NCBI GenBank assembly: GCA_025059775.1
Contig: JANXCW010000014.1
Span: 1 to 54,658, forward strand
DNA: 54,658 nt
Source of the DNA: Armatimonadota bacterium
GTDB taxonomy: Bacteria; Sysuimicrobiota; Sysuimicrobiia; Sysuimicrobiales; Sysuimicrobiaceae
Reading direction: 5' to 3'
Part shown: in pieces, positions 1,660-46,433 of the stretch
Layout: each line of letters starts with the position of its first letter
Numbering within the stretch: position 1 is the stretch's first letter
Made by a program: the position numbers and the translations under genes
The notes under the pieces: generated by a model
The model's input: only the letters and a program-made list of their open reading frames with translations
What the model was told of the DNA's origin: nothing
The model's database searches: none

Positions 1660-3467
1660 CAGAAGCTCCCCCCAAACCGCAGGTACACGGATCGCCCCGG
1701 GGCGGGATACCCCCGGAGGGTCTCATAGCGGGCGTCCAGGAGGTTGTCCACTACGGCCTGCACGGTCCAGTTCCTCCACCGTATCTCGTACCGGAGGCCC
1801 AGGGTGAGGTAAGAGGGCAGGAGGATCCGGTTGGGGGGGAGAGTGGCGTAGTCGAGGTCGGGGCGTTCGCCGACGTAGTGCGCCACGAGGGTCAGGGAGC
1901 TCTGGGGGCTCACCTCATACCGCAGGGCCAAGTTCGCGGTCCACCCCGGCACGCGCAGCAGTGGTAGGCCGGTGGTCCGGTCCAGTCCGTCTGACCAGGT
2001 GAGGTTTCCCAGCACCGACCACCGGTCTCCCAGCCGGCCTACCGCCTCCGCGGAGAGCCCCTGGATGCGGGCGGAGCCGATGTTCTGCGGGGGGCAACCG
2101 CCCGTGATGAGGTCCCGGGAGTCCGTGTAGAAGCCGTTGAGCCGGACCAGGAGCCCTTCCCGTACCTCCGCCTCCATGCCCAGATCCAGGGACCACGCGC
2201 TTTCGGGCCTCAAATTTGGGTCGCTGCACCCCGGGAAGAACCGCTCCCCGAAGGTGGGCCCCCGGAAGGTGCGGCCCACGCTCCCTCGGACCCGGACGCC
2301 GGGACCCAGGAAGTGCACGAACCCCAACCTGGGGTTGAGCTGCATCCCCCAGGTGCGGTGTAGGTCCAACCGGGCGCCCACGCCCAGGAGCGTCCGGTCT
2401 AGCAGGGCAAGGTCGACCTGCCCGTAGCCCGAAAGGGCGGCGTCGTCCGCGGCGTAGCCCCCGAAGGAATCCTGAAAGCGGTAGCTGGCACCCTGCCATT
2501 CCGCGCCCAGGGTCAGGAGGGCTCCCGTGGGCAGGCGCAGGATCCGCTGCCAGTTCGCGCCGTATGCGCTCCCCCGGGCATCGGACCCGTACCCGGGAGA
2601 GGTGTACGCGAGCCCCTCCCCGTACCACCACATCCGGAACAGGTGCTCCGGCAGGTTTGGCTCCCCCCGCCGCCAGGTGAGGCCTGCGACCGTGCGCCAA
2701 TCGGACTGCCGGTCGGAGGGCGTGGGCAGGAAGGAGGGCCCGGGAAGGCCGGAGCGCCCGTCCGTGTGGTGGAAGCTCAGCTCCACATCGCCCATCGGGA
2801 GCGCGGGAAGGGAGATCCGCCCGGTGGCGGTGAGGCGCCGCGCGTCGCCGTTGGGCAGAAACCCGCCCGTGGTGAGGAGCTCAGCGCCGAGACCGTACCG
2901 GAGGGCTTCGGAACCCCCTCCCAGGCTCAGGTGGGCCTGCGCGGTGTCGAAACTCCCGTAGCCGGCAGAGATCCGTGCGCGCTCGGGCCTGCGGGTGATG
3001 ACGTGGATCACGCCTCCCAGGGCTCCGCTCCCCCACAGGGCGGAGTACGGGCCCCGCAGGACCTCGATGCGCTCCACTTCCGCGAGGGGAAGGGTGGCGA
3101 GGTTCACGCCGAACTGAGCGGTGGGGTTAAGGGGGACGCCGTCCAGGAGCACCAGGACCTGGAGGGGGCTCGTGCCCCGGATGCTGGGCTGGAGCAGACC
3201 GCCCGGCCCTGGGTAGGCCTCCCGGACGTACACCTCCGCCAGCAACCGCAGCGCCTCGCCCACGGTCAAAAACCCTAACCTGCGCAGCTCCTCGCCTCCC
3301 AGCACCGTCACGTACGTGGGCGTGCCCACCACGGGCTGGGGCCGACGGCCTGCTACCACCACCTCCTCGCCCTCGAAGACAGGCGGTACCTGGGCCGAAG
3401 CGGACAGGGCGGAGAGGAGCGGGAGGAGAATACTCCAGCAAGCCAGGACAAGAGGGCGTGTGCGCAC
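1659..3467 (-). CDS. btuB: TonB-dependent outer-membrane receptor, probably cobalamin (BtuB-like)
   Basis: A 602-residue outer-membrane receptor. A signal peptide ends near SALSASAQ. A plug domain (about residues 35-150) follows, containing VTVLGGEELRRLG, LLDGVPLN and the conserved IEVLRGPYSALWGSGALGGV. The remainder is alternating amphipathic strands of a 22-stranded barrel, ending in an aromatic residue (LRFGGSF). Size and plug resemble BtuB. The substrate is assigned from the cobalamin riboswitch directly upstream, not from the protein alone. The start is GTG at 3467, chosen because GGAGG lies 8 nt upstream and is the element the riboswitch can mask. It is translationally coupled to the TonB-like gene that follows. 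Confidence 0.85.
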   Translation of the reverse strand: MRTRPLVLACWSILLPLLSALSASAQVPPVFEGEEVVVAGRRPQPVVGTPTYVTVLGGEELRRLGFLTVGEALRLLAEVYVREAYPGPGGLLQPSIRGTSPLQVLVLLDGVPLNPTAQFGVNLATLPLAEVERIEVLRGPYSALWGSGALGGVIHVITRRPERARISAGYGSFDTAQAHLSLGGGSEALRYGLGAELLTTGGFLPNGDARRLTATGRISLPALPMGDVELSFHHTDGRSGLPGPSFLPTPSDRQSDWRTVAGLTWRRGEPNLPEHLFRMWWYGEGLAYTSPGYGSDARGSAYGANWQRILRLPTGALLTLGAEWQGASYRFQDSFGGYAADDAALSGYGQVDLALLDRTLLGVGARLDLHRTWGMQLNPRLGFVHFLGPGVRVRGSVGRTFRGPTFGERFFPGCSDPNLRPESAWSLDLGMEAEVREGLLVRLNGFYTDSRDLITGGCPPQNIGSARIQGLSAEAVGRLGDRWSVLGNLTWSDGLDRTTGLPLLRVPGWTANLALRYEVSPQSSLTLVAHYVGERPDLDYATLPPNRILLPSYLTLGLRYEIRWRNWTVQAVVDNLLDARYETLRGYPAPGRSVYLRFGGSF

Positions 3468-3507
3468 GGGCCCACCTCCACTTAACCCCCGAAGGGGGTG
3501 GGTCTGT

Positions 3508-3681
3508 GCGCGGGCAGGTCTTCTGGCTCCGGATCCTCGCCTCGCCCGCCCTTCCCAGGCCGGCAGCTTGCACCCCTCCGGCCCAGTGGGTTGCTGTGGG
3601 CTCGGCTCCCCGGTTACAGCGGCGGGAACCGCGCCGGACTCGGGGCCCGGGCCCCTGCACCGGACTTCCCTTGGCCCGCGC
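3508..3681 (-). promoter_or_regulatory. Cobalamin (AdoCbl-type) riboswitch
   Basis: Read on the minus strand, the leader holds the hallmark blocks of the cobalamin riboswitch in order. P1 5' strand GCGCGGGC comes first, then AAGGGAAGTCCGGTG, then GGTTCCCGCCGCTGTAA, a CCCACTGGGCC region, CTGGGAAGG, and the most diagnostic block GGAGCCAGAAGACCTGCC. The P1 3' strand GCCCGCGC then closes the structure. Downstream (3485-3499) is a small ACCCCC/GGGGGT hairpin. A CCCACC stretch there can pair with GGTGGG in the Shine-Dalgarno region (3471-3479), so control is probably of translation initiation. It governs the receptor gene and, by coupling, the TonB-like and YqgF-like genes. Confidence 0.93.
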
Positions 3682-3734
3682 GGCCTCAGGATAGCGCGGG
3701 TCTACGGCCCTGTCCACCGTTGACCCATGGGGGC

Positions 3735-4670
3735 TTACGGGGATGTCCCTCCGAGCTCGAACCCGAGCCACAGGGGACCCTCGGTGAAGGCATCCCGGAG
3801 CACCACCACGCGCACCCGGGTGGGCACCCCTCGCCGGAGGATCTGGTCCGTGATGCGCCGACCCGAGTCTCCGTCCACCACCACATAGGGCGGGCCGTTC
3901 ACCCGGGTCTGCGGGGCGCTCAGGATGCGGCTGCGGCCTGGCGGCCCCGCGCGCTGCGAGGCTGCCTGCGCCAGGAGCAACAGGGCGTCCCGTACCTGCT
4001 CCCGCGGGCCGGGGGTCACCATTCCCGCTTCGAGCACCTGCCCTTTTCGAAACACGAGCTCGTTCTTGACCAGCTGTACATCCACGGGCACGGGCTCCCC
4101 CGCGAGTGCGTTCTTGGTGCTGACGATGCGGACCACCACCTCCTGCCTGCGACGTCGGATGAGGCGCTCGATGGCCTCCCAGGAGATCCCCGGCTGAAAG
4201 GGCACGATCACGTTCCCGTTCGCATCGGGGCCTGCCCCCTGACCTGTGGCGAACTCCACGGCCCGCTGACGCAGCCGGAAGAAGGCCTCCCGGACCTCCG
4301 AAGGCCCGAGGCGCCCATCCAACACTTCCCGGGCCAGCTCCTGATCGCTGAGCACGGCGATGGTGCCCTGTTCCAGCCGGGCGATGTCCCGCCGCAACGC
4401 CTCCGCGCGTTCCTCCAGCTGCCTCACCGTCTCCCGCAGCCGGAACAGGGCCGTGCGGGCGTCCCGGGAGAGCCCCAGGAGGGTCCCCACGGTGAGGAGG
4501 TGGATGAGCATCCCGGTGAGCACCGTCACGATGTGGGCGGTGGTCCGGGGGCGCAGGCCCCACAGGCTGAGGCGCTGCTTCCCTACCCGGCGGCCGACCA
4601 CGTTTCCCACATACGCGATGAGCCCGCTGATCAAGAGCAGCAGGGGCAGGAGGAGGTAGCCGATCTCCAT
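3735..4670 (-). CDS. DUF3084-family membrane-anchored coiled-coil protein
   Basis: A 311-residue protein with two N-terminal membrane segments (MEIGYLLLPLLLLISGLIAYVG, then a helix around IVTVLTGMLIHLLTVGTLLGL). A coiled coil follows (about residues 65-105, rich in RLRETVRQLEERAEALRRDI), then a globular C-terminal half. This order matches DUF3084, a family of unknown function found in cyanobacteria, Deinococcota and Armatimonadota. An upstream in-frame start at 4796 is rejected because it would add 42 low-complexity residues overlapping the previous gene. ATG at 4670 has GGAGGG 7-8 nt upstream. It sits 74 bases after the glycosyltransferase gene and just before the riboswitch. An envelope role is inferred from context only. 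Confidence 0.8.
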   Translation of the reverse strand: MEIGYLLLPLLLLISGLIAYVGNVVGRRVGKQRLSLWGLRPRTTAHIVTVLTGMLIHLLTVGTLLGLSRDARTALFRLRETVRQLEERAEALRRDIARLEQGTIAVLSDQELAREVLDGRLGPSEVREAFFRLRQRAVEFATGQGAGPDANGNVIVPFQPGISWEAIERLIRRRRQEVVVRIVSTKNALAGEPVPVDVQLVKNELVFRKGQVLEAGMVTPGPREQVRDALLLLAQAASQRAGPPGRSRILSAPQTRVNGPPYVVVDGDSGRRITDQILRRGVPTRVRVVVLRDAFTEGPLWLGFELGGTSP

Positions 4671-4744
4671 CGCCCTCCAGCATACCGCACGCCCCCGGGG
4701 CCCTGGGGCTCCGGTAGGAAGCGGCAGAGCGCCCGCAGAGGGGA

Positions 4745-6379
4745 TCATCGGGTTCGGATTTGTCGCGGAACGGGAGGTTCGGTGGACCGAAGACACGCCG
4801 GTATCCTTTCGCCCGCGGGCTTCTCCAGCAGCAGATGGCCTCCTACCTGCCGCACCGTCCGCAGGCCTGAGAGCAGGTCCGGGTGGTAGAACCGCTCCGG
4901 CACCACCACCACGGCCCTCCGAGGGGAGGGGACCGCGCAGAGCATGCCCCGGAGGGAGTCCTCATCCTCCGCGTACCGCCAGTGCAGGCCGCTGTACGTG
5001 ATGAGGCTGTTGAGGGTGCGGAAGCCGATCCGAACATCCCCGGGCCGCGCCACCGACGCCGCCGTCCGCCCCACCTCCGGGCCAGAGCGGTGGCGGTCCA
5101 CCTCGGGCAGGGCGATGCCGACGGCGAGGGCGAAGAACAGCAGGCTGCTGCCGCCGAGGGCCAGCACCGCACCTCTGACGGAGCCGCGCAGGCCCAACCG
5201 CGCGGCAACCCCTCCTCCTGCCACCAGGGCGGCCACGGGGGGGACGAGGGCTGGCACGAGGGCCCGGGTCTGGGAGGGGTACAGCAGCGCTCCGTAGGCC
5301 GCCACCGCAGCCCCGAAGAGCGCGCAGAGGGCCGCCAGGAGTCTCCACCCACCCCGTGGCTTTTCCTCCTCCCCAAACGTCCCGGCCTCCAGCGCCCGGC
5401 CGATGAGGAGGGCCGCCGCGGGGTACAGGCTCAGCACGTAGTTCGGGAGCTTCGTGCCCGCGAGGGAGAAGAAAGCGAATCCGAAGGCGAGCCACACGAG
5501 GAGGAAGAGGGAGCGGGGATCCCTCCTTTCCCGCACCGCCCCTGAACAGGCCTCCGGGAGGAAGGCAGTCCAGGGCAGAAGGCCCAGGACGAGCACCGGC
5601 ACGTGGTACCAGATGGGGCCGCTCTGCCCCTCCACCACGCCCACGTACCGGTTCAGGGTGTAGTAGCCGAGGGCGGTGCGCAGAAAGGCCGCCCCGTGCA
5701 GGACGGCCTGGATCCCATACCACCCGCACCCCAACACCGCATAGCTCAGAAGAGCGGGAATCCACGGCACCTCCCGTAACCGGCCCAGCTCCCGGCGGAG
5801 CACCAGGAACAGGAACCCCACCGCGCCCGGAACCGCCGCGGCCACGAACCCCTTCGTGAGGGTCCCCAAGGCCGAGGCCACGAAGGCCAGGAGGTATGCC
5901 CGACGTTCCCCCCGCGCGTATCCGCGCCAGAACCCGAGGAAGGACAGCAGCATCCACAGCACGAGGAGGGGATCGAAGACCGCCAGCCGCGCCTGCGCCC
6001 ACCACTGGAGGGTGGTGGCCAAGACGAAGGCCGAGAGCACCCCGCACCGGGGGCCGAAGAGCTCCCGGCCGAGCAGCCCTGTGACGAGCACCCCGAGCAC
6101 ACCAGCTACCGCGGACCAGAACCGGGCCGTGAACTCGGTCACCCCGAAAAGTCTGCCGGTGGCGGCCACAAGCCAGAAGTAAAGGGGCGGGTGGACGAAC
6201 CACGGTTCCCCGTTCCACCGCAGGGTGACCCAGTCCCCGGTCCGCAGGATCTCCTGCGCGATGCCCGCGTACTTCGCCTCGTCCTGATCCCACAAGGGGG
6301 AGGTTCCCAGGCGCCAGAACAGGAGGAACGCAGAGAGGGCAATCCCCACGTGCAGCGCGCGCCTCACCGCCTGCGCCAC
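4745..6379 (-). CDS. ArnT-like (GT39/PMT-type) membrane glycosyltransferase
   Basis: A 544-residue polytopic membrane protein with about 12 hydrophobic segments. The first periplasmic loop carries the family signature WDQDEAKYAGIAQEI, whose acidic pair is catalytic in GT-C enzymes, followed by WNGEPWFVHPPLYFW. ArnT and its relatives move a sugar from an undecaprenyl-phosphate carrier to lipid A or protein on the outer face of the inner membrane. Next to the Lpx/Lpt genes, lipid A modification is the likeliest job, but the sugar and acceptor cannot be told. The annotated GTG start overlaps the lptF-like gene by 16 nt. A second in-frame GTG at 6367 would give a tidy 4-nt GTGA overlap and may be the true start. 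Confidence 0.85.
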   Translation of the reverse strand: MAQAVRRALHVGIALSAFLLFWRLGTSPLWDQDEAKYAGIAQEILRTGDWVTLRWNGEPWFVHPPLYFWLVAATGRLFGVTEFTARFWSAVAGVLGVLVTGLLGRELFGPRCGVLSAFVLATTLQWWAQARLAVFDPLLVLWMLLSFLGFWRGYARGERRAYLLAFVASALGTLTKGFVAAAVPGAVGFLFLVLRRELGRLREVPWIPALLSYAVLGCGWYGIQAVLHGAAFLRTALGYYTLNRYVGVVEGQSGPIWYHVPVLVLGLLPWTAFLPEACSGAVRERRDPRSLFLLVWLAFGFAFFSLAGTKLPNYVLSLYPAAALLIGRALEAGTFGEEEKPRGGWRLLAALCALFGAAVAAYGALLYPSQTRALVPALVPPVAALVAGGGVAARLGLRGSVRGAVLALGGSSLLFFALAVGIALPEVDRHRSGPEVGRTAASVARPGDVRIGFRTLNSLITYSGLHWRYAEDEDSLRGMLCAVPSPRRAVVVVPERFYHPDLLSGLRTVRQVGGHLLLEKPAGERIPACLRSTEPPVPRQIRTR

Positions 6380-7440: not shown

Positions 7441-8205
7441 TCACATCTGAAAGCGCTCGCCCAGGTAGAACCGACGCACCTCCTCGCTGGCCGCCAGGGC
7501 CTGTGCGGTCCCCTCGAACAGGACCTTTCCCTCGTACAGGATGGTGGAGCGATCCGTGATGGCGAGGGTCTCCCGCACGTTATGGTCGCTGATGAGCACT
7601 CCGATCCCCTGTTTCCGGAGGGTCGCGATGATGTCCTGGAGTTCCTGGATGGACTTGGGATCCACCCCCGTGAAGGGCTCGTCCAGCAGGAGGAACCGGG
7701 GGCGGGTGGCGAGGGCCCGGGCGATCTCCACCCGCCGCCGCTCCCCGCCCGAGAGGGTGTAGGCGGGCTGGTGGCGGAGGTGCGCGATGTGCAGGGCCTC
7801 CAGCAGCTCCTCTACCCTGGCCATCCGTTCCGCCCTGGGAAGTCCGTGCTGCTCAAGGATGAGCTCGATGTTCTCCGCGGGGGTGAGCTTGCGGAACACG
7901 GAAGGCTCCTGCGCGAGGTAGTGGATGCCTGCCCGGGCCCGAAGGTGCACGGGGAGGTGCGTGATGCGGGTGTTTCCGAGGTACACCTCTCCCGCGTTGG
8001 GGCGCACGAGGCCCACGATCATGTAAAAGCAGGTGGTTTTGCCCGCCCCGTTGGGGCCCAGCAACCCCACCACCTCGCCCGGCCGGACTACGAGGCTCAC
8101 CCCGTCCACCACCGTGCGGGCGCCGTAGCGCTTTTGAAGCCCTACGGCCCGCAGGGCGGTCCCGTCGGGATCCCCTCGTGCGGCAGGTTCACGGACGGAC
8201 CACAA
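7441..8205 (-). CDS. lptB: LPS export ABC transporter ATPase LptB
   Basis: A 254-residue ATPase with the Walker A motif GPNGAGKTT (about 50-58), the LptB-type Q-loop segment YLAQEPSVFRKLT, the signature LSGGERRRVEIARAL (151-165), Walker B FLLLDEP (171-177) and the H-loop SDHNV (His208). It hydrolyses ATP for the Lpt bridge with the LptF/G permease encoded 3 nt downstream. No ATG or GTG is well placed. A TTG at 8205 has GGGGAGGA 6-7 nt ahead and gives a normal LptB length, so it is chosen. It overlaps lptA by 17 nt. A far-upstream ATG at 8238 lacks a ribosome site. Confidence 0.92.
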   Translation of the reverse strand: MWSVREPAARGDPDGTALRAVGLQKRYGARTVVDGVSLVVRPGEVVGLLGPNGAGKTTCFYMIVGLVRPNAGEVYLGNTRITHLPVHLRARAGIHYLAQEPSVFRKLTPAENIELILEQHGLPRAERMARVEELLEALHIAHLRHQPAYTLSGGERRRVEIARALATRPRFLLLDEPFTGVDPKSIQELQDIIATLRKQGIGVLISDHNVRETLAITDRSTILYEGKVLFEGTAQALAASEEVRRFYLGERFQM

Positions 8206-8971
8206 CCCGTGTCCTCCCCACGCTCCACGCTCTCCCATCCCGGTACGCGTACCACACCTCCGGTGCCGTAACCCGATCTCCGTCCCGCACCACCTCCACC
8301 CCACCCCGCAGCACCGCAACCCCCTCCGGAACCCGGACCTCCACCTCCTGGGCGGTGGCCGCCATCCGACCGTCCGTGATCCGCACCCCGCCCGCGGCGT
8401 ACAGGACGCGGCTCCGCAGGTCGGCCCGGAGGAACCCCGCGCGGACCGCCACCCCTTCCACCTGGGCCTCCGGCTGCCCGCGGGCCACCGCCTCCCCGAC
8501 GTCCCAGTCCACGGAGAGGGTCGAGGCATAAAGGCGCACATCCCGGTAGCTCCCCCGTACCCCGTCCGTAGCCTCTACTCGATTCGCCCGAAGATCCGCC
8601 TGGAGGTGTGGAGCCTGCACCACCACGGTCCCTCCCTCGGCTTCCCGGATCACCGTCACCTCCCCCTCCGCCTCCAGCCACCGCGTGTCCAGGCGGTAGT
8701 CCAGCCGATGGGCGATCAGGCGCTCAGAGGGACGGAGCAGCGTAACTCCTCCCTCCGCGGTTATGCCCCGCCGGTTCCGGTCGTAGCGGATGCGGGGGGC
8801 CTGCACCTCCAGGTCTTGCCATCGGACCCGGACGGGGTCCCCGAGGAGCTGCCAGACGCCCGTCACATCATCCAGGTCCGCCACCCGTGCCTGGAGGACC
8901 TGGATGGCCCCTTGCGCCGCGGCCGGAATCACAGCCAGCAGAACCGCCAGGAACCCAACGAGGAGCCTCAT
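8189..8971 (-). CDS. lptA: LptA/OstA-like periplasmic LPS transport protein
   Basis: A 260-residue exported protein with a clear signal peptide (MRLLVGFLAVLLAVIPAAAQ). The body consists of repeated short strands of the OstA/LptA type: recurring A-x-x-V/I-x-Y-D-R..., ITAEGGVTLLRPSERLIAHRLDYRLD and similar units, including VLYAAGGVRITDGRMAATAQ. LptA polymerises into the periplasmic beta-jellyroll bridge that carries LPS to the outer membrane. It is longer than Escherichia coli LptA (about 185 residues), implying extra jellyroll turns. Its ATG overlaps the TGA of the LptC-like gene by one base, and lptB follows. Confidence 0.85.
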   Translation of the reverse strand: MRLLVGFLAVLLAVIPAAAQGAIQVLQARVADLDDVTGVWQLLGDPVRVRWQDLEVQAPRIRYDRNRRGITAEGGVTLLRPSERLIAHRLDYRLDTRWLEAEGEVTVIREAEGGTVVVQAPHLQADLRANRVEATDGVRGSYRDVRLYASTLSVDWDVGEAVARGQPEAQVEGVAVRAGFLRADLRSRVLYAAGGVRITDGRMAATAQEVEVRVPEGVAVLRGGVEVVRDGDRVTAPEVWYAYRDGRAWSVGRTRVVVRP

Positions 8972-9492
8972 CACGGCTCCTCCACCGCCTCCAGGCGTAC
9001 GTTGCCCACCAGCCGCGCCCGTCGCAGCCCCACATCGGCCACGAGGCGATCCCCCCGGCCCACCAGACGCTCCCACCGCAACTGCACCCGCTCTGCCTGG
9101 ACCTGGCCGGCCTCGTACACCGCCCGATCCGCCCGCAGCCAGCGGTCCCGGGTCACCACGATCTCCACGGAGCCCACGAGTGCCACGCGTCCCGTGCGGA
9201 GGCCATACTCCCCGCGTTGCGCGCGGAACTGCACGGGACGTCCGTCCTGGGCGAAGAATACGCCCCTGGGCTGCAGAAAGGCCGCTACTCCCCTCCGCTC
9301 CTCCACGGTCACGGACGCGGCCACCAGTTGCCACACCCTGCGGCCCCGAGCATCCGCCCCCACGACCCAACCCTCCTCCAGCTCCAGCACCGGTGAGGGT
9401 GCGGACCACAGGAGGCGCGGTACTCCCACCACGAGGCTCAGGGCCGCCAGGAGCCCCAGGACCCACTTGCCGCGCAGGCAGAGCTGGCTCAC
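8971..9492 (-). CDS. lptC: LptC-like LPS transport protein
   Basis: A 173-residue protein with one N-terminal membrane anchor (about residues 8-28) and a beta-rich periplasmic domain. This matches the size and topology of LptC, which links LptB2FG to LptA. Segments such as VLELEEGWVVGADARGRRVW and RAQRGEYGLRTGRVALVGSV fit the LptC jellyroll. Sequence conservation in this family is low, so the call leans on the tight order lptC-lptA-lptB-lptF. The TGA shares one base with the lptA ATG. Confidence 0.78.
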   Translation of the reverse strand: MSQLCLRGKWVLGLLAALSLVVGVPRLLWSAPSPVLELEEGWVVGADARGRRVWQLVAASVTVEERRGVAAFLQPRGVFFAQDGRPVQFRAQRGEYGLRTGRVALVGSVEIVVTRDRWLRADRAVYEAGQVQAERVQLRWERLVGRGDRLVADVGLRRARLVGNVRLEAVEEP

Positions 9493-9501
9493 GCTCCGAT
9501 C

Positions 9502-10620
9502 CTACCCCATCCTGAGGCCCCGGGCGAGCACCTCCCGGGCGGATCGTTCCAGGGCACCGGGCGGTCCGAGCCGTTCCCGCAGCGCCCCGAGCACCCGCCG
9601 TATCCGGTCGGCGTGATCCGGGTCCAGGATTCGCAGAAGCTCCTCCGCGAGGGCCTGGGGATTCGCCTGCTCCTGCAGCATCTCCCGCACCACCTCCGCA
9701 CCCGCGAGGAGGTTTGGGAGGGAGATCCAGGGGACGGTGGCGATGCGGCGGGCGATCCAGGCGGTGACCCGGGAGACGCGGTAGGTGACCACCATGGGGG
9801 TCCCCAGGATCAGGGCCTCCAAGGTAGCGGTTCCGCTCGCCACGAGGGCCGCGTCCGAGGCAGCCAGGAGGTCGTAGGGGTGACCCGGGATCACGGGGAG
9901 GTCCAGGGCGTGCTGGGCAATGAGCCGCTCCAGGGTTTCCGAGGCCCGGGCGATAACGGCCTGGAGGCCCGGTACTCGTTGCCGGGCGATCCGGACGGCT
10001 CCCACCATAGCGGGAAGCAGCGCGCGGACCTCCTGAGTCCGGCTCCCGGGGAGCAGGGCCACGAGGGGACGAGTGGCATCCAACCCCAGGGTGGCACAGA
10101 ACTCCTCCCGGGACCGCTCCGGACGCACCCAGTCCAGAGCAGGGTGCCCGGTGAAGATCACGTCCGCGCCCGCCTCCCGGTACAGGTCGGCTTCGAAGGG
10201 AAAGGGTGCCAGCACCCGGACGGGGAGCCGGGCGAGCTTGCGGGCTCTGCCTGAGCGGCGGCCGTAGGCCATGGGCGGAAAGTAGTACATGGTGGGGATC
10301 TGAGGGCTCAGATGCCGGGCCACCGCCAGGTTGAATCCGGGGAAGTCCACCAGCACCAACACGTCCGGCGCTTCCTGGCGGATCCAGCGCAGCACCCGCC
10401 ACAGCCGTTCCGCGAAGATCGGCACGCGCAGGTAGCTCTCCAGATACCCGATGACCCCCCAGGTGGAGGTGTCCAGCACCACGCGGACCCCGGCCTCGCG
10501 CATCCGCTGCCCGCCTCCGCCCACCACCTCCACTCGGGGCTCAAGGGCTCGCAGGGCACGGGTCAGGTGGGCGGCCGCGATGTCCCCGGAGACCTCGCCC
10601 GCGAGGAGGAAGACCTTCAC
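9502..10620 (-). CDS. lpxB: Lipid-A-disaccharide synthase LpxB
   Basis: A 372-residue GT19 glycosyltransferase that joins UDP-2,3-diacylglucosamine to lipid X, forming the lipid A disaccharide at the inner membrane. The N-terminus KVFLLAGEVSGDIAAAHL is the LpxB signature. VLVDFPGFNLAVAR, YYFPPMAYGRR and the C-terminal domain motifs LLPGSRTQEVRALLP and ALVASGTATLEALILGTPMVV all fit. The canonical YY-V-S-P-x-x-W-A-W is altered here (YYFPPMAYGRR). The start is GTG at 10620, where GTGA overlaps the lpxI stop by 4 nt; longer frames upstream are shadows. Confidence 0.93.
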   Translation of the reverse strand: MKVFLLAGEVSGDIAAAHLTRALRALEPRVEVVGGGGQRMREAGVRVVLDTSTWGVIGYLESYLRVPIFAERLWRVLRWIRQEAPDVLVLVDFPGFNLAVARHLSPQIPTMYYFPPMAYGRRSGRARKLARLPVRVLAPFPFEADLYREAGADVIFTGHPALDWVRPERSREEFCATLGLDATRPLVALLPGSRTQEVRALLPAMVGAVRIARQRVPGLQAVIARASETLERLIAQHALDLPVIPGHPYDLLAASDAALVASGTATLEALILGTPMVVTYRVSRVTAWIARRIATVPWISLPNLLAGAEVVREMLQEQANPQALAEELLRILDPDHADRIRRVLGALRERLGPPGALERSAREVLARGLRMG

Positions 10621-35551: not shown

Positions 35552-36699
35552 GTGTCCTTAAAGCCTGCATCCCCTCCCGAGCCTGAAGCGGTTTCCAGGA
35601 TTCCCCTGTACGTTCCCAAAACCGGTGGCTTGAGCACCACAAAGGTCTCCGTAGTCCGATGGCTGAAACGGGAGGGCGAACCGGTGTACAAAGGCGAGCC
35701 CCTCGTGGAGCTCCTGACGGAGAAGGTCACCTATGTCCTTGACGCTCCTGCGGGTAGAGAGAAACTTCTTTGGATGTACACCCAGATGGTTCGCATCCGC
35801 CGGTTTGAGGAGAAAGTAAAACAGACCTTGGAGAACCACCCCGGGATGATCCGTGGCCATACCCACCTCGCGGATGGCGCTGAGGCGGCCATCGTCGGCG
35901 CGCTGGCCACCCTACAACCAAATGACTTTGTCATGTCCACGTACCACTGCCACGGCTATCCCATCGCCCTCGGAACCCCCACCCGTCAGATCATGGCTGA
36001 GATTTACGGTAAGTGGAATTGTCGGACAGGTCATTCCTCAAGCCACGGGCGCCGCCTGGCCGTTCAGGTTAAAGGTACCCATCAGGTCGTCCTCTGTTTC
36101 TTCGGCGACGGCGCCACCAAGCAGGGAGCCTTCCACGAATCCTTGAATATCGCCTCCCTTTGGAAACTCCCTAGTGTACATCTTCTAGTGTACATCTTAG
36201 AGAACAACGAATACCAAGCTTACACCCGTGTCGAACTGGAGGACGCCAATGCCGCGGCCGGCGAGGATCTCTCCGTCAAGGCGAGAGCCTACAGCATGCC
36301 CGGCGTGACCGTGGACGGCTCCGATCCCATCGCCGTGTATCAGGTCGTTGGACAGGCCGTGGCCCGTGCGCGGGGGGCAAGGGTCCTACGCTGGTGGAAG
36401 CCAAAGTTTACCGGCTCAGTGCACACGGGAACGCCATCACGGTGCCCCCGATTCCCACCAAATTCCCCGAGCATGAGGCCATCTCCGTTTACGACAACCC
36501 GGGTGAGTACGAGACAGGCCGGAGAAAAGACCCCATACCCCGATTCCGGGCGTTCCTGCTCGATGCAGGGATCGCCTCTGAGACGGAGCTGGAAAGCATC
36601 GAACAGGACACCCAGAGTGAAATGCAGGAGGCCGTGGCCTTCGCCTTGGAGGAGCCCTATCCGGCCCCCGAGGAGGCCCTGAGGTACGTGTACGCCTAG
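35552..36699 (+). pseudogene. Decayed 2-oxoacid/acetoin dehydrogenase: lipoyl-domain fragment joined to E1 alpha
   Basis: The first 50 or so codons encode half of an E2 lipoyl domain (VVRWLKREGEPVYKGEPLVEL, with TEKVT the lysine turn). They run straight into an E1 alpha start (LLWMYTQMVRIRRFEEKVKQ) without the rest of the lipoyl domain or its linker. E1 alpha is itself damaged. After MAEIYGKWN the Gly-rich TPP-binding stretch is missing, and the fragment GIVGQVIPQATGAAW appears in another frame. The original frame resumes at VQVKGTHQVVLCFFGDGATKQGAFHESLN. A further shift near 36370-36400 moves the C-terminus (VEAKVYRLSAHGNAITVPP to EEALRYVYA) to another frame. Several independent lesions show a true pseudogene rather than one sequencing slip. 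Confidence 0.85.
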
Positions 36700-36705
36700 G
36701 AGGGG

Positions 36706-37689
36706 ATGACGATGCCCAGAGAGGTCATGTACGCAGAGGCCATAGGGGAAGCCATTGCGGAGGAGATGCAGCGTGATCCCACGGTCATTTACTACGGCCA
36801 GAACATGGCGATGACCGAGAAGGACCCCTTTTGCGAATCTTCGGCAGGAACCGAGTTCGGATCACCCCTGTTTCGGAAACGGCACAGATCGGCATGGCCA
36901 TTGGCGCAGCGCCGGCCGGCCTTCGTCCCATGGTGGAGCTTTGGATGACCGACTTCATGCTTGTGGCCCTGGATCAGGTCATCAATCAAGCCCCACGACT
37001 TCGCTATATGTCCGGCGGCCAGGTCAAGGTGCCTTTGGTATTGAAGGCGGGATATGGCTTCATCGCAGGCTGGGCAGGCCAGTATTCGAACTGCTACTAC
37101 AACCTTTTCCTGGGCGTCCCGGGATTAAGGGTCGCCATCCCCTCTACACCCTATGACGCCAAGGGGCTGATGAAGGCAGCGATTCGAGACGATAACCCGG
37201 TCGTGTACCTGCATCACTGGAACCTGACCCTGATTCAGGGCGAGGTCCCGGAAGAGGACTACGTGGTGCCTTTCAGGGTTGCGGACGTAAAACGAGAAGG
37301 AACGGACGTGACCGTGGTCGCGACGGGATGGATGGTCCACAGATCTTTATCCGCTGCGGAGCAGTTGGCTCGGGAAGGGATCAGCGTGGAGGTGGTGGAT
37401 CCCCGGACCCTGGCTCCCCTCGACATCCAGACCACCCTCAACTCCGTGAAGAAGACATCGGCGGCTGGTGCTTGTCGATCAGGCGCCGAAATACGCATCG
37501 GTGTCCTCGATCATCGCGGCAGCTGTCGCGGAGGAGGGGGTCCATTCCCTCAAGGCTCCGATCAAGCAGGTAACCGGACTCGAGGCGACGATCCCCTACA
37601 GCAAGCCCATGGAAGAGTACGTGATCCCCAGTGAGGAGCGGATTATCCAGGCGGTCAGGGAAGTCCTCGCCGAACGCGCGGCTGCCTGA
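36706..37689 (+). pseudogene. Decayed 2-oxoacid/acetoin dehydrogenase E1 beta
   Basis: The product would be an E1 beta subunit, but the frame breaks at least twice. The N-terminus (REVMYAEAIGEAIAEEMQRD) is in one frame to about 36830. The core is in a second frame, with ITPVSETAQIGMAIGAAPAGLRPMVE, RYMSGGQVKVPLVL and VATGWMVHRSLSAAEQL. After VKKT (about 37455) the C-terminus shifts again (LVDQAPKYASVSSIIAAAVAEEGV to REVLAERAAA). AGGAGGGG precedes ATG 36706/36712, so the ancestral operon structure with E1 alpha is still visible. E2 and E3 genes are absent. Confidence 0.85.
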
Positions 37690-39100: not shown

Positions 39101-39610
39101 GTGATCGCACACCGGGAACTGCCAACGAGTGGTCGGCACGTCTTCGGGGTGGGATTTGCCGCCACCGCCACCACCCTGCTCGCCTCTCTCCTCGTGGTCC
39201 TGTGGGGGCTGGGGCGCGCCGTGATGCATCCGGAGGCCACGGACTTCCTCACCCGGTGGTTCCTAGGTCTATGGGACAACTTGGTGCTGGACCGCACGCG
39301 GGTGGCCTTCAGCTGGTCCCTGGTGGCGTTCGCTCTTACGGGAGTTCTGTACGCGCACCTCTACGTCCGCACCTTCGGTCCCGTGTTCTACCGGGTGGAG
39401 GCCCTGGCCACGCGGCCGTGGCTGTGCGGACTGCTCTTCGCACCCGTCCCGTGGTTGGTGACCCTGTTCGTGACCCTGCCGCTGGTGGGCGCAGGCTTTT
39501 TAGGAAGCGCCCTCGCCTCCGGCGGGTTTGCCTGGCTCGCACTCCTGGCCCACCTCCTGCACGGTCTCCTGCTGGGCGTCTGGTTCGACGCCACGGCCCG
39601 ATCCGGTTAA
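39101..39610 (+). CDS. Small four-helix membrane protein, unknown function
   Basis: A 169-residue protein with about four hydrophobic segments ([83 protein letters not shown]). Conserved-looking polar residues include [11 protein letters not shown] and [11 protein letters not shown] do not recognise the family. GTG at 39101 has GGAGGGA 4 nt upstream. It is divergent from ctaA, and its TAA overlaps the convergent transketolase TAA within TTAA. Confidence 0.7.
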
Positions 39611-41658
39611 TCTGCCTCCAGGAGCTCCAGACTCAACCGCTCCACGCGGTCCGGGGTAAACCCGAATCGCTCCGCCACCACCGGATAGGGGGCAGAGGCC
39701 CCGAAACGGTCCACTCCTACGATCCGGCCCCGGCAGCCCACGTATCGTTCCCAGCCGAGGGGACTTGCCGCCTCCACCGCGATGCGGCGCTCCACGTGCG
39801 GAGGAAGCACGGCCTCCCGATACTCCCGGGGCTGAATGTCGAACAGTTCCCAGCACGGGAGGCTGACCACCCGGGCCCGGATGCCCCGGCGCACCAGGCG
39901 CTCATAGACCTCCACGCACAGCACCACCTCCGAGCCGCTGGCGAGGAGGATGAGTTCCGGAGGGCCCTGCCTGGAATCCGCGAGCACGTATCCGCCCCGG
40001 CGCAGGCCGCTTGCGGGCGCGTACCGGGTGCGGTCCAGGGTTGGGACCGGCTGGCGGGTGAGCACCAGGGCCACGGGACCCGCGGTGTACTCCAGGGCCA
40101 CCCGCCAGGCCTCCGCGGTCTCGTTGGCGTCCGCGGGCCGGATCACGAGAAGGTGGGGGATGGCCCGCAGGGAAGGGAGGTGTTCGACGGGCTGATGGGT
40201 GGGGCCGTCCTCGCCCACGAAGATCGAGTCGTGGGTGAAGACGTAGATGACGGGAAGCCTGCTCAGGGCCGCAAGCCGGATCGAGGGCCGCATGTAGTCG
40301 CTGAACACGAGGAAGGTGGCGGCAAAAGGGCGCACCCCGCCGTGGGCCGCTAGTCCGTTCGCAATAGCCCCCATGGCGTGCTCCCGGACCCCGAAGTGCA
40401 GGTTGCGACCCCGGTAATCCACGGAGCCGCCGCTGCCGCCCTGCGGGTCCCCGATGCGGCGCGCGGGGCTCTGGAAATCCCCCAGACCCCGTAGGGTGGT
40501 GTTGGTAGAGGGGTTGAGGTCCGCGGACCCGCCCACCAGCCACGGAACGCGCGGCGCGATGGCGTTGAGGATCCGTCCGCTGGCCGCGCGGGTGGCCACC
40601 TGCTCCCCGGGCGGGAAAACAGGAATCTCCTCATCCCACCCTTCCGGGAGCTCGTGGCGATGCGCGTGGTCCCACAGAGCGGCGAGGTCCGGGTAGGCCT
40701 GCGCCCACGCTTCGAAGTTCCGCCGCCACTCCGCCTCCCACCGCCGTCCCCGTGCGAGGGCCTCCCGGAAACGTCGCAACGCCGCCTCCGGCACCGTGAA
40801 GGGCTCCTCGTAGGGCCAGCCCAGCCGCTCCTTGGTGGCCCGCACACCCTCCACCCCCAGGGGGGCCCCGTGCGCCTCATAGGATCCCTCCTTCGGGCTT
40901 CCGTAGCCGATCCGCGTGTGCACGATGATGAGGGAGGGTCGGTCCAGCTCCTCCCGCGCTGCACGGATAGATGCCTCCAGGGCTTCCAGATCGTTGCCGT
41001 CCGGGACATCCTGCACGTGCCATCCGTATGCCTCGAACCGCTTTGCCACGTCCTCCGTGAAGGAGTAGTCCGTGCTCTCGCTCAGGGTCACCCGGTTGCA
41101 GTCGTACAGGTAGATGAGCTTGCCCAGCCGCAGGTGCCCCGCGAGGCTCGCGGCCTCCGCGGCCACCCCCTCCATGAGATCGCCGTCCGAGACCACGGCG
41201 TACACGTAGTGGTCCACGATCTCATACCCAGGGCGGTTGAACACCGCGGCAAGGTGGCGCTCCGCGATGGCCATGCCCACTCCGTTCCCGAAGCCCTGTC
41301 CGAGCGGCCCCGTGGTTACCTCCACCCCGGGGGTCAGGTGACGCTCCGGATGTCCCGGGGTACGGCTTCCCCACTGCCGGAAGTTCCGGAGGTCCTCCAG
41401 GGAGAGATCGTAGCCCGTGAGGTACAGAAGGGCGTAGAGGAGCATGGAGGCATGGCCCGCGGAGAGCACGAACCGATCTCGGTCGGGCCAATCTGGGTTC
41501 TCGGGATTGTGCTTTAAGAACTTCGTCCACAGGACGTAGGCGGCAGGCGCGAACCCCAGCACCGCCCCGGGGTGTCCGGAGTTGGCCTGTTGGATGGCGT
41601 CGATGGCCAGCATCCGGATGGTGTTGATGCACAGCTCGTCCAGCGCCCGCTCCTCCAT
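39607..41658 (-). CDS. tkt: Transketolase
   Basis: A 683-residue thiamine-diphosphate enzyme of the pentose phosphate pathway. N-terminal domain motifs are [39 protein letters not shown] and the TPP/Mg site [20 protein letters not shown]. The pyrimidine domain carries [20 protein letters not shown] and [21 protein letters not shown], which hold the catalytic Glu and His. The C-terminal domain follows. ATG at 41658 with GGGAGGCGG 3-8 nt upstream is preferred over GTG 41682, whose ribosome site is too close. Confidence 0.97.
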
Positions 41659-41732: not shown

Positions 41733-44543
41733 ATGCCGGAGGCTTTGGAGCCTGATCTGGCCTGGGAAGCGACCACGGAAGCGGAGCTGCGGGCACGGTT
41801 CGGCCCACCCACCCCTGAGACGGTGGAGATCCTGAAGGACCGCCTAGACCGCCTCGCGCACCGCGCCCCCTCGGCCGCCCTGCACGGCGCCCGAATCCTC
41901 GTGGCGTACGCGGCGAGCGGAGCGCCCGCGTGTCGGGCGCTGGCCCAGCTCGCCCTGGCCAACGCCCTCCTGTGGACGGATCGGCTCCGGGAAGCTGCGT
42001 CGGCCTATGACGTGGCACGGGCGTGCGCGGAGGAGGCCGCAGACCCGGTGCTCGGGGCCCGATGCGGGATCGGGAAGATGGGAGCCCTCTTCCTCCAGGG
42101 ACGTTCGGAGGAGGCCCTCGCCCTGGCGGACGCCATCGAGCCGGTGCTGGCCGGATCGGACCAACCGCTCCTCCTCGCGCGGGTCCTCAGCCAGCGGGCC
42201 ACCCTGCTCAAGCACCGGGGAGACCTGGTAGGGGCCGTGGAGGCTTATACCCGGGCCATCGCCCTCCTGCGGGGCGTGGAGGGTGGAGCCCTGGACCTGA
42301 CCATCGCCCTCCACAACCTTGCCCTCGGCCTCTTGCGCCTGGGCCGGGCAGAAGAGGCCCTCCACCGGCTGGAGGAGGCGCGGGAGGCTGCCCATCAAGC
42401 CCGCAGCACCCTGTGGGAGGCCCGGGTTGCGGCCGCGGAGGGGGAACTAGACACGTATCTGGGCCGGTATGCCCGGGCCATCGTCGCATTCGAGCAAGCC
42501 GCAGACCTGTACGAGGGGGCCGGCGTCGGGGCCACCGCGGCTATGTACCGGCTGCGGGCGATGGAAGGATGGCTGTACCTGGGCCGGTGGGAACGGGTGG
42601 AGCAGGAGGCCGGTCCGCTGGCGGAGGACCTTCACGTCCGGGGGTTTGCGGCGGAGGCCGCCCGGGTCCGCTACCTCCTAGCCCTAGCCCACCGGCAGGC
42701 AGGGCGATGGACGGAGGCGGAGGACCTGTTGCGCCAGGCGGCCTCCGCCTTTGCGGCCGCCCAGCGCACCCTGTGGAGGACGGCGGTGCTCGCGGAGCTG
42801 GCGGCCCTTCGGTTGCGCCGGGGAGCGGTAGAGGAAGCGGCATCGCTCCTCCAGGAAGCCCACGCCGCAGGCGCCTCGCAGGACGCCGTGGGGTTCGTGC
42901 GCGTCCTCCTGGTGGAGGCGGATCTGCATGCGGCACGGGGAGATCTGTCCGCCGCAACCCGGGCCGCCCGGGCGGCCCTGCGCGCCGGACGGCGGCTCCG
43001 CCTGCCATGGGCCTGCGCCCTCGCCCACCGCCGGCTCGCCTGGCTCAGTCCCTCGCCGCGCGGGCGCCGGATGCATCTTCTGAGTGGAATCGCCTACGCC
43101 CACCGCATCCTCGCAGCGGTTCCCGCGGATCTCCGGTGGAGCACCTATCGAGAGTTCCAGCAGCTGTACGGGGAGGGCCTACGGGTCCTAGCGGAGGCAG
43201 GGCAACCGGACCGGGCGTGGGAGGTGGCGCAAGGCATGAAGGCCCAGGGCATGGCCCAGCTCCTCCTCAGAGACCCTGTGGCGCACCTGCGCGCCCCCAC
43301 CCCATCCGAGGACTCCCTTGTCCGGGAGCTGCAGCGCCTGCACACCCAATACCGCGTCCTCGCCTCCGGGACCCTGGAGGCACCCGCGGATCCTACGGTC
43401 CTCCGCACACTGGAGCGCCGGATTCAGGAGCTCGTGGAACGGCTCGCGGTCCACGGCACAGCCCTGGACGAGGCGGTGCTCCTGGGCTTTCCACACGCAC
43501 CTGAACGGCCCTCCTTTGGCTCCGAGACGGCCCTGGTGGAGTACGTGGCCATGCCCGACGAGCTGCTCGCCTTCTGCCTGCGGGATCGAAGCGTGCGGAT
43601 CTTCCGGAACCTGGCGCCCCTGCCCGAGGTCCACCGACGTACCCGCTGGCTCGGGCTGGGCCTGCACGCGTACGCCTCCGGCCACCTGAAACCGCAGGAG
43701 GCCCTGGCGCAGATTACTCGGGTCCTCAGGGATCTCTCCACCCTGCTCCTGCAGCCCCTGGAGCCTGCCTTATCGGGGTGCCGAAGACTCATCCTCGCCC
43801 CCAGCGGCCTCCTGTTCGGGCTTCCCTTTCATGCCTTCCTCCAGGGGGATCGGTGCGTGTGGGAGGATCGGGAGGTGAGCTACATCCCCGCCGGTTCCCT
43901 CCTCCCTCTGCTGGAGCGTCGGATCCCCACCAGAGGGCCCGCAGTACTCTTCGCCAGCACCCAGGGCGGCCAGATCCCGCAGGCCGCGGAGGAGGTGGCA
44001 CGGATCGCCCGCTGGATTCCCGCCCGGGTGCTCCGGGAACCGACTCGGGAGATCTTCCTCTCCGAGCTGCGCCGATGCGCACTCCTGCATTTCGCGGGCC
44101 ACTGCGTGTTCCACCCGGAGGCACCACTTCTGTCCGCCCTCCACCTTGCGGATGGTCCCCTCACGCTGCTGGATCTCCTGGAGGTGCCCGCGCGGGTGGA
44201 GCTCGTGGTGCTCAGTGGCTGCAGCACGGGAGCGCATACGGTGCTTCCTGGAGACGAGCTCTTCGGGTTCGCACGGGCCTGGCTGCGGGTCGGGGCCCGG
44301 GGGTTGGTGCTCTCCCTGTGGCCAGCGGAGGACTGGTCCACGTGCCAGCTCATGGAGGCCTTCTACCGGGAACTCGCAGGCGGTGTACCTCCCGCCGCGG
44401 CCCTGCGCACCGCAGCGCTCCAGATCCGGGAGAGGTTCCCACACCCCCTGCACTGGGCCGGATTCCTCTACATGGGTTCTCCGAAACTCGGACCACCATC
44501 CGTTGATTCTCCGGAGACTCCAGGAAGGAGGGAAAGGGAATGA
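41733..44543 (+). CDS. TPR-CHAT caspase-like protease
   Basis: A 936-residue protein. Residues 1-560 are helical repeats of TPR type (for example [40 protein letters not shown]). Residues 650-925 are a CHAT domain, the caspase-like cysteine protease fold. The catalytic dyad is present: His790 in [10 protein letters not shown] (usually H-G) and Cys830 in [11 protein letters not shown]. Typical flanking motifs also appear: [37 protein letters not shown] and [16 protein letters not shown] proteases cut protein partners on activation, for example in type III-E CRISPR (Craspase) or with gasdermins. No CRISPR gene or gasdermin is nearby. Its TGA overlaps the next gene's ATG as ATGA, so a subtilase is its direct partner. 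Confidence 0.92.
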
Positions 44544-45947
44544 ATCGCCGCTGGCGGTATCTCGATGCGCACGTCCTCTTCGCAGGGCCTGCAGAGATTC
44601 TGCCCGCGCTGGAGCGGGACCATCCCGTCCGGTGCCTCATGTGCAAGACCACTCCCCGATCCGCTTTTGTTCCGGTCCGGGAGGGCCGCACCACCCGATG
44701 GACCCGGATCCCAATTCCCGCCTTCCCCCTGCCCACATACGGCTGGACCGTTCAGCCGTACGTGGTCGAATCGGAGGACCTCTCCCCGCGCGACCTCCTA
44801 CGCCGGGTGCTTCGTGCACGCAGCCCCCCTGGAGCCTCCCCTGGTGGGATCCCTAGACTACGAAGCCCGCGGCCAGGCGGACGGGGTACACGGAAGTCCC
44901 ACCCCGGACCAGGCCATCCGGATGCCGGACGCCACGGAAGCGGAGTTCCGCACACAGGTGGCCTTTGAGCGCATCGGGCTGCTGCGCATGGAGCGGGCGC
45001 CGCACCGACCCCGGGGCGCGGGGGTGACCGTGGTCATCCTGGACAGTGCTCCAGACCTGCAACGGGGTGAGCCCGCCTTCGATGCCGCACTCGTGGACGT
45101 GTACGTGGAGTGGCCGCACCCGCTCCCGGAGAACCTCCCAGCGCTGCGCAGCGTGGAGGAGGCCGAAGAGGAGGGGTGCGGGCTAAGCGAGCGCCGGCGA
45201 TACCGGGCGTTCTCCCCTCTCGTGGCGGACGCGGACGGGATGCGACAGTACCGGGCCCACCACGGCCTCATGATCGCCGCCCTTGTGCGCCGGATCGCGC
45301 CAGAAGCGAACATCGTGCTCGTGCGGCTGCTGAACGGGGAGCTCGGGACCCTGACCGGGGACCTCATCGAGGCCATGCGCTGGGTGCGCCGCCTGCAGCG
45401 GGTGCCCCACCCCTCTGGTGCTCACTCCTTGGTGTACGGAAGCCTGGTATACAACCTGAGCCTAGGGGTGGACCGTTCCCAGCCGGAGACCGTGCAGTCC
45501 TGTGTCCTGCTGTGGGCCGTGGACGAGGCCGCCCGGGCGGGCGCGGTCCTGGTGTGCGCCGCCGGCAACCTTTCCGAGGGGCGGCCGGAGAACTGTCTGG
45601 AGCCCGCGGCCTACGGGCACTTCGGGGACACGCGGAGCGTCCGCACGCAGGTAATCCCCGTGGCCGCCAGCAGCTACGCATCCCCGGAGCGCTACGCGTG
45701 GTTCAGCAACGAAGCCCACTTCGCGGCACCCGGCGAGGACCTCATCCTGGACTGTGGGGTGGAGGTGGCAGGCAGCCGCTACGTGCGGTGGTCAGGAACC
45801 TCCTTCGCCTCCGCCCTCGTCACGGGAATCGTGGCCCTGCACCTCAGCGCGGGCCTTCCTCCGTACGAGGTCAAGCAGCGGCTGTGGGAGGAGGCTCGCC
45901 ATCCCCACTCCTGGGACGGCGTGCACCTGGTGCAGGCGGGCGGGTAG
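44540..45947 (+). CDS. Subtilisin-like (S8) protease with unique N-terminal domain; frame broken at a C6 run
   Basis: Two open frames form one gene. The start ATG (44540) and about 94 codons ([16 protein letters not shown]...) are in the frame coupled to the CHAT gene. After a run of six C (44824-44829) the protease continues one frame over. Removing one C gives 469 uninterrupted codons including the stop. The subtilase domain is complete: Asp in TVVILDSAPD (45042), His in RAHHGLMIAALV (45258-45263), oxyanion Asn in VCAAGNLSEG (45567), Ser in WSGTSFASAL (45801). No signal peptide is visible, so it is probably cytoplasmic. The shift could be a sequencing slip, phase variation or slippage. The intact catalytic residues argue against long decay. 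Confidence 0.85.
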
Positions 45948-46028: not shown

Positions 46029-46433
46029 ATGGTGCGTAGGATCGGCGTGCTTCTCCTGCTGTTGGCTCTTTTGGCGGGGATCTGGGCGTGGAAGCCGGCC
46101 CGGGCAGCCCCCGCTCCCGCGGATCGGTTCGTGTGCTGGGACCCCGCGGTCCGATCCCAGATCGAGACGGTCTACGACCGGCACCGCACCAGCCTGCGCA
46201 ACGCCCGGCTGCGGGTGGAGGACGAGCGGTACGCCCTGCGGCGGCTGCTGCTCTCCCCTCAGGCCACCCGGCAGCAGGTGGAGTCCCAGGTCGCGCGCCT
46301 ACTGGAGGCCCAGACGGCCCTGCAGCGGGCCCGGCTCGGCCTCCTCCTGGACCTGCGGGAGAGCGTCCCCGCGGACCGTCGGGAGCAGGTCCTGCGCTGC
46401 GCGCTGGGCCCCTGGCGTGGATTCCGGAGGTAA
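46029..46433 (+). CDS. Spy/CpxP-like (periplasmic metal-resistance family) protein
   Basis: A 134-residue exported protein: signal peptide to about residue 26, then a short segment with one Cys (FVCWDPAVRSQIE). Long antiparallel helices follow, rich in Arg, Leu and Gln (LRNARLRVEDERYALRRLLL and ATRQQVESQVARLLEAQTALQ). That length and pattern match the Spy/CpxP/ZraP/CnrX fold of periplasmic chaperones and metal sensors. The L-T-x-x-Q motif is not clear, so the subfamily is uncertain. GGAGGTGAG precedes the ATG. Confidence 0.65.
   Translation: MVRRIGVLLLLLALLAGIWAWKPARAAPAPADRFVCWDPAVRSQIETVYDRHRTSLRNARLRVEDERYALRRLLLSPQATRQQVESQVARLLEAQTALQRARLGLLLDLRESVPADRREQVLRCALGPWRGFRR

Follow-up and report, generated by a model that had tools for sequence, protein, structure and literature searches.

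A conserved two-gene locus encoding a predicted TPR-CHAT protease and a subtilase in the bacterial family Sysuimicrobiaceae

Introduction

ECF54 sigma factors have conserved gene neighbours encoding carboxypeptidase, subtilase and CHAT domains, and their regulation by proteolysis has been proposed (PMC8999054, in which these neighbourhoods are attributed to Huang 2015 and Casas-Pastor 2021). In the type III-E CRISPR system Craspase/CASP, which consists of Cas7-11, Csx29, Csx30 and CASP-sigma, the TPR-CHAT protease Csx29 cuts Csx30, an inhibitor that binds an ECF-like sigma factor (PMC10028731).

Here we describe a locus on a 54,658-nt stretch of DNA from an Armatimonadota bacterium of the family Sysuimicrobiaceae (GenBank assembly GCA_025059775.1, contig JANXCW010000014.1; hereafter, the window), in which a TPR-CHAT gene is followed directly by a subtilase gene (Table 1). 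TPR-CHAT and subtilase genes also stand together in ECF54 neighbourhoods and in a wider set of loci described below (the cassette). Set beside the ECF54 neighbourhoods, the cassette loci display an ECF sigma factor gene and a zinc-finger gene, the sigma factors having been called with Pfam and small profiles. The window locus departs from ECF54 neighbourhoods in having neither a sigma factor gene nor a zinc-finger gene next to it and in coding for a divergent, apparently non-secreted subtilase.

With Craspase/CASP, the window CHAT protein shares the TPR-CHAT architecture and the His/Cys dyad, and the cassette shares an ECF sigma factor and a candidate inhibitor; in contrast to that system, the window locus lacks Cas7-11. 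Against the NCBIfam Csx29 model, the window CHAT protein scored 22.5 bits (E=4e-5), well below the cut-off of 300, and a cassette CHAT from another genome (G143) matched over residues 549-907 with E=6e-17. The subtilase, for its part, is S8 by sequence, as are mycosin and QhpE, to which it gave weak matches (2.6e-13, 49.8 of 278.75 bits, and 2.7e-11, 43.2 of 165 bits, respectively), and its N-terminal domain differs from those of mycosin and QhpE-like subtilases.

An initial sequence-only reading of this DNA had put the pair forward as a candidate undescribed system. That label was too strong, since the occurrence of subtilase and CHAT genes around ECF54 is already on record in PMC8999054 and cassettes are present in several phyla. 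In light of the ECF54 review and the Csx29 precedent, TPR-CHAT, ECF sigma factor and subtilase have in part been associated before; what is new is the cytosolic form with two genes.

Table 1. Coordinates of the CHAT-subtilase locus and its upstream neighbour in the window
Feature	Position	Strand	Basis or remark
Divergent transketolase gene, upstream neighbour	39607..41658	-	Kept in 7/7 family genomes; start codon placed by eye
Predicted TPR-CHAT cysteine protease gene	41733..44543	+	936 aa; Pfam matches, His790/Cys830, dN/dS
Subtilase start and N-terminal domain	44540..44829	+	Spans ~95 codons of this frame; overlaps the CHAT stop at ATGA; kept in the family
C6 run in which the frame breaks by one base compared with the sister species	44824..44829	+	Alignment to G001; family profile match splits here
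Subtilase catalytic part (Peptidase_S8)	44832..45947	+	Frame differs from that of 44540; all four active-site residues (Asp, His, Asn, Ser) present

Results

The first gene of the pair encodes a protein with a Pfam CHAT domain (PF12770) at residues 663-916 (E=7e-53, 180 bits against a cut-off of 24), preceded by TPR matches within residues 148-429. The catalytic dyad, His790 and Cys830, is unchanged in an alignment of 10 CHAT sequences, six of which are from outside the family. By its PF12770 domain score and its His/Cys dyad the protein is thus a predicted CHAT protease, and on this point the sequence-only reading, which had proposed such a protease with an intact dyad, was borne out. When the window was compared with a sister species of the same genus (G001), dN/dS of the CHAT gene was 0.22. 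Single-sequence structure prediction returned a mean pLDDT of 44.5 for the window CHAT protein and 32.8 for the core of the window subtilase, too low for either model to be used.

The subtilase gene begins with an ATG at 44540 that overlaps the CHAT stop (44543) by 4 nt, as had been read from the sequence at the outset. Its product matches Peptidase_S8 (PF00082, E=1e-18), and the active-site Asp, His, oxyanion Asn and Ser are unchanged both in the family and in the secreted CHAT-linked subtilases described below. The earlier claim of a subtilase with all catalytic residues therefore stands for the residues, all four of which are present; it fails for the single frame that it presupposed. The frame starting at 44540 stops at 44968 after 142 aa, the catalytic domain sits in a separate open frame (44565-45947), and a family profile hits the window as two separate segments, at 44540-44824 and at 44832-45938. 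Alignment to the sister species locates the break in the run at 44824-44829, where the window carries one extra C. In the six other family genomes the subtilase is one open frame of ~465 codons; the family's gene is accordingly a full-length subtilase with two domains. The window subtilase, then, is frame-broken in this assembly, by either a real mutation or a sequence error. Programmed frameshifting was rejected as the cause, because all six relatives are open without a break.

Decay of the pair in this genome, with the subtilase left as a pseudogene after the frameshift, is quite possible, although we hold it at short of even odds, and it would be compatible with any reading at the level of the family. 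Such decay is suggested by the break in the C6 run and by further genes with broken-looking frames nearby (35.5-37.6 kb), yet the catalytic part past the break is still strongly constrained, with a dN/dS of 0.12 (window versus G001), as expected of a very recent break or of a sequence error in a homopolymer. For the N-terminal part of the subtilase, dN/dS in this comparison was 0.25. CHAT and subtilase are both under purifying selection, which likewise indicates that the break is recent or a sequence error. Two of the seven family genomes thus have a break in one of the paired genes: the window in its subtilase and G005 in its CHAT gene (L023), which is divided where one base is inserted relative to G004. 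The pair may accordingly be dispensable, or the assemblies faulty.

The stretch of the window at 35552-37634 contains dehydrogenase E1 alpha and E1 beta-like genes with a lipoyl-like N-terminus and seemingly broken frames; counterparts at this position are missing from the sister species. G+C in this stretch is 0.61, versus ~0.70.

No signal-peptide-like segment was detected in any family subtilase by N-terminal hydropathy: the best 13-residue value near the N-terminus was 1.3-1.8, versus 1.9-3.0 in the secreted cassette subtilases, in agreement with the initial reading of a subtilase without a signal peptide. The ~130-residue N-terminal domain of the family subtilase had no Pfam match, and no profile similarity was found between it and the cassette prodomains or zinc-finger proteins. 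The candidate identities of this domain as a usual subtilase prodomain or as a relative of an anti-sigma factor were set aside, as neither had profile support.

The pairing of the two genes and its conservation in the family are real. In all seven family genomes, two of the window's genus and five from two other genera, CHAT and subtilase are adjacent on one strand, with identities to the window of 44-83% for CHAT and 64-90% for the subtilase core; homologues of the two are thus not the rare neighbours that would have spoken against a coupled system. The 4-nt overlap between the CHAT stop and the subtilase start seen in the window is shared by G001 and G003; in G002 the overlap is longer, at a few tens of bases, and in G005, G004 and G006 the two are separated by 1, 3 and 21 nt, respectively. 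Upstream, the transketolase gene is constant (7/7), whereas the genes downstream of the subtilase vary between the genera, indicating that the operon comprises CHAT and subtilase only. No counterpart of the pair was found in the 36 other genomes of the order, among which only G025 has a distant CHAT. That the pair is missing there, and that its transketolase neighbour is constant, argues for vertical inheritance at a fixed locus.

Directly downstream of the window subtilase, at 46029-46433, lies a gene for a small, putatively exported protein of Spy/CpxP-like appearance, present among the relatives only in the sister species.

Beyond the family, a family CHAT profile matched 83 of the 386 diverse genomes searched, a figure that includes the family itself, and six of the ~80 surveyed extra-family CHAT loci had a subtilase directly downstream on the same strand. 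When these loci were ranked with a family-only profile, subtilase-linked ones made up four of the top seven and two of the ~75 others (Fisher p=0.0003). The concern that CHAT might occur mostly with unrelated partners is therefore justified for CHATs generally, but less so for those closest to the family. This profile search and this survey come nearer to unbiased frequencies than does the targeted sampling that follows.

Extending the count by targeted sampling in the phyla to which G249 and G333 belong, and with further loci, we found 25 loci in 23 genomes, from at least three other phyla, in which TPR-CHAT is followed directly by a subtilase. Nearly always, the gene order at these loci was ECF sigma factor, zinc-finger anti-sigma factor, TPR-CHAT and signal-peptide subtilase. 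CHAT loci were sampled by score, and the fractions are not unbiased frequencies, since the A3 profile used for the targeted sampling includes cassette members: sigma factor and zinc-finger genes were both present in 16 of the 25 loci, the zinc-finger gene only in four and the sigma factor gene only in two, the remaining three being truncated by a contig start within or just ahead of the CHAT gene; seen from the other end, a subtilase was present in 16 of 23 loci having both sigma factor and zinc-finger genes. Sigma factor, zinc-finger and subtilase calls were made with small profiles built here and confirmed with Pfam for a subset. The cassette sigma factor corresponds to Sigma70_r2/r4 and the zinc-finger protein to zf-HC2, and one of the zinc-finger proteins gave a weak carboxypeptidase-regulatory-like match.

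Several individual loci may be recorded here. Contig C8 of G236 carries two cassettes of ECF sigma factor, zinc-finger protein, TPR-CHAT and subtilase in tandem (L157 and L189). L052 (G330 contig C53, ~8012-9526 in match orientation) has sigma factor and zinc-finger matches upstream of CHAT, then a gene of caspase-like appearance and no subtilase. At L024 (G025) and L055 (G103), a sigma factor, a zinc-finger-like protein and TPR-CHAT precede large putative secreted proteins of RCC1-like appearance, in which 'CGL...GAAYCWG' motifs recur. L108 (G000 contig C26) lines up genes for an ECF sigma factor, for an anti-sigma-like protein and for a secreted subtilase (3166-5983, minus strand), the C-terminal part of the anti-sigma-like protein resembling a subtilase prodomain, and has a second subtilase at 7455-8864.

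The window locus, like the loci of the other six family genomes, has TPR-CHAT directly followed by subtilase, in the manner of the last two genes of the cassette. An ECF sigma factor gene and a zinc-finger anti-sigma gene are absent directly upstream of the window CHAT gene, where the neighbour is the divergent transketolase, and among the groups seen only the window's family has CHAT and subtilase without an adjacent sigma factor or zinc-finger gene. The family CHATs resemble those of the cassette, in that their nearest full-length relatives from other families include ones linked to sigma and anti-sigma factors; the CHAT tree put the family on a long branch without fixing its position. The CHAT evidence thus points towards descent of the window pair from the cassette. 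As for the subtilase, a secreted enzyme is a feature of the cassette, whereas that of the family is divergent, without a signal peptide and equipped with an N-terminal domain of its own. On a profile of the cassette subtilases, those of the family scored 71-88 bits, versus 157-226 bits for six ordinary subtilases. The family subtilase hence is not a close relative of the cassette subtilases, being either strongly diverged or separately recruited, and its scoring below ordinary subtilases makes replacement or independent recruitment as possible as descent.

Discussion

The reading that we prefer, at a probability of roughly 45%, is that the pair constitutes a chromosomal, vertically inherited two-gene operon, in which a signal-gated CHAT protease acts on or with a co-translated subtilase. 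The TPR array of the CHAT protein would most likely bind a signal and gate the caspase-like CHAT protease, whose most likely partner would be the subtilase, an intracellular and probably co-translated protein with a family-specific N-terminal domain. The subtilase could then be a substrate of CHAT, switched on by removal of its N-terminal domain, or it could join CHAT in one complex as a co-effector. As to function, a role in stress signalling rather than in mobile immunity is our best reading.

The main rival to a coupling of CHAT and subtilase is that the two proteases are co-expressed and attack different targets after the same signal, or that the subtilase is an intracellular protease with a housekeeping function in turnover or maturation and the target of CHAT is another protein, possibly a regulator whose gene lies elsewhere. 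We regard this as a possibility to be entertained tentatively. In the cassette the subtilase is secreted and CHAT is not, so that their mature forms cannot meet directly there, and direct cytosolic cutting of one protease by the other cannot be general. Moreover, a locus fixed beside transketolase throughout the family looks like a core function, the family subtilase is weakly similar to the maturation protease QhpE, and ECF-like sigma factors occur elsewhere in all seven family genomes. Nevertheless, the tight coupling, with a 4-nt overlap and linkage in 7/7 genomes across three genera, speaks for a functional or stoichiometric tie between the two proteins.

A role in anti-phage defence or cell death, with CHAT sensing infection and triggering the subtilase to degrade host proteins, is less likely, and in our estimate quite improbable: Csx29 and other CHAT proteases do work in immunity (PMC9729208, PMC10028731), but the locus yielded no known anti-phage system in PADLOC beyond a single weak 'subtilase' match (E=1e-5), with none for the window CHAT, relatives of CHAT or subtilase were not found in viral contigs nor relatives of the subtilase in plasmids, and all family members share one locus instead of showing patchy presence. 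The same viral-contig and plasmid searches lent no support to a viral or plasmid origin.

Returning to the coupling of CHAT and subtilase, the wider cassette suggests how the pair may have come about. By analogy with Csx29, the cassette CHAT would cut the anti-sigma factor, and the window's family has the two proteases but no transcription part. In its fullest form, which we consider rather unlikely, this scenario would have a widespread chromosomal, non-CRISPR cassette of four genes, spread over several phyla, whose CHAT protease cuts the zinc-finger anti-sigma factor, frees the ECF sigma factor and thereby induces the subtilase; Craspase would be a CRISPR-recruited version of it, and the family would have lost the transcription step and wired CHAT straight to a cytosolic subtilase.

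To our knowledge, control of a sigma factor by TPR-CHAT has so far been shown only in type III-E systems, and the wider cassette would offer a non-CRISPR comparison for it. If CHAT in this family does gate a second cytosolic protease without CRISPR, the pair would represent a compact two-step proteolytic switch in bacteria.
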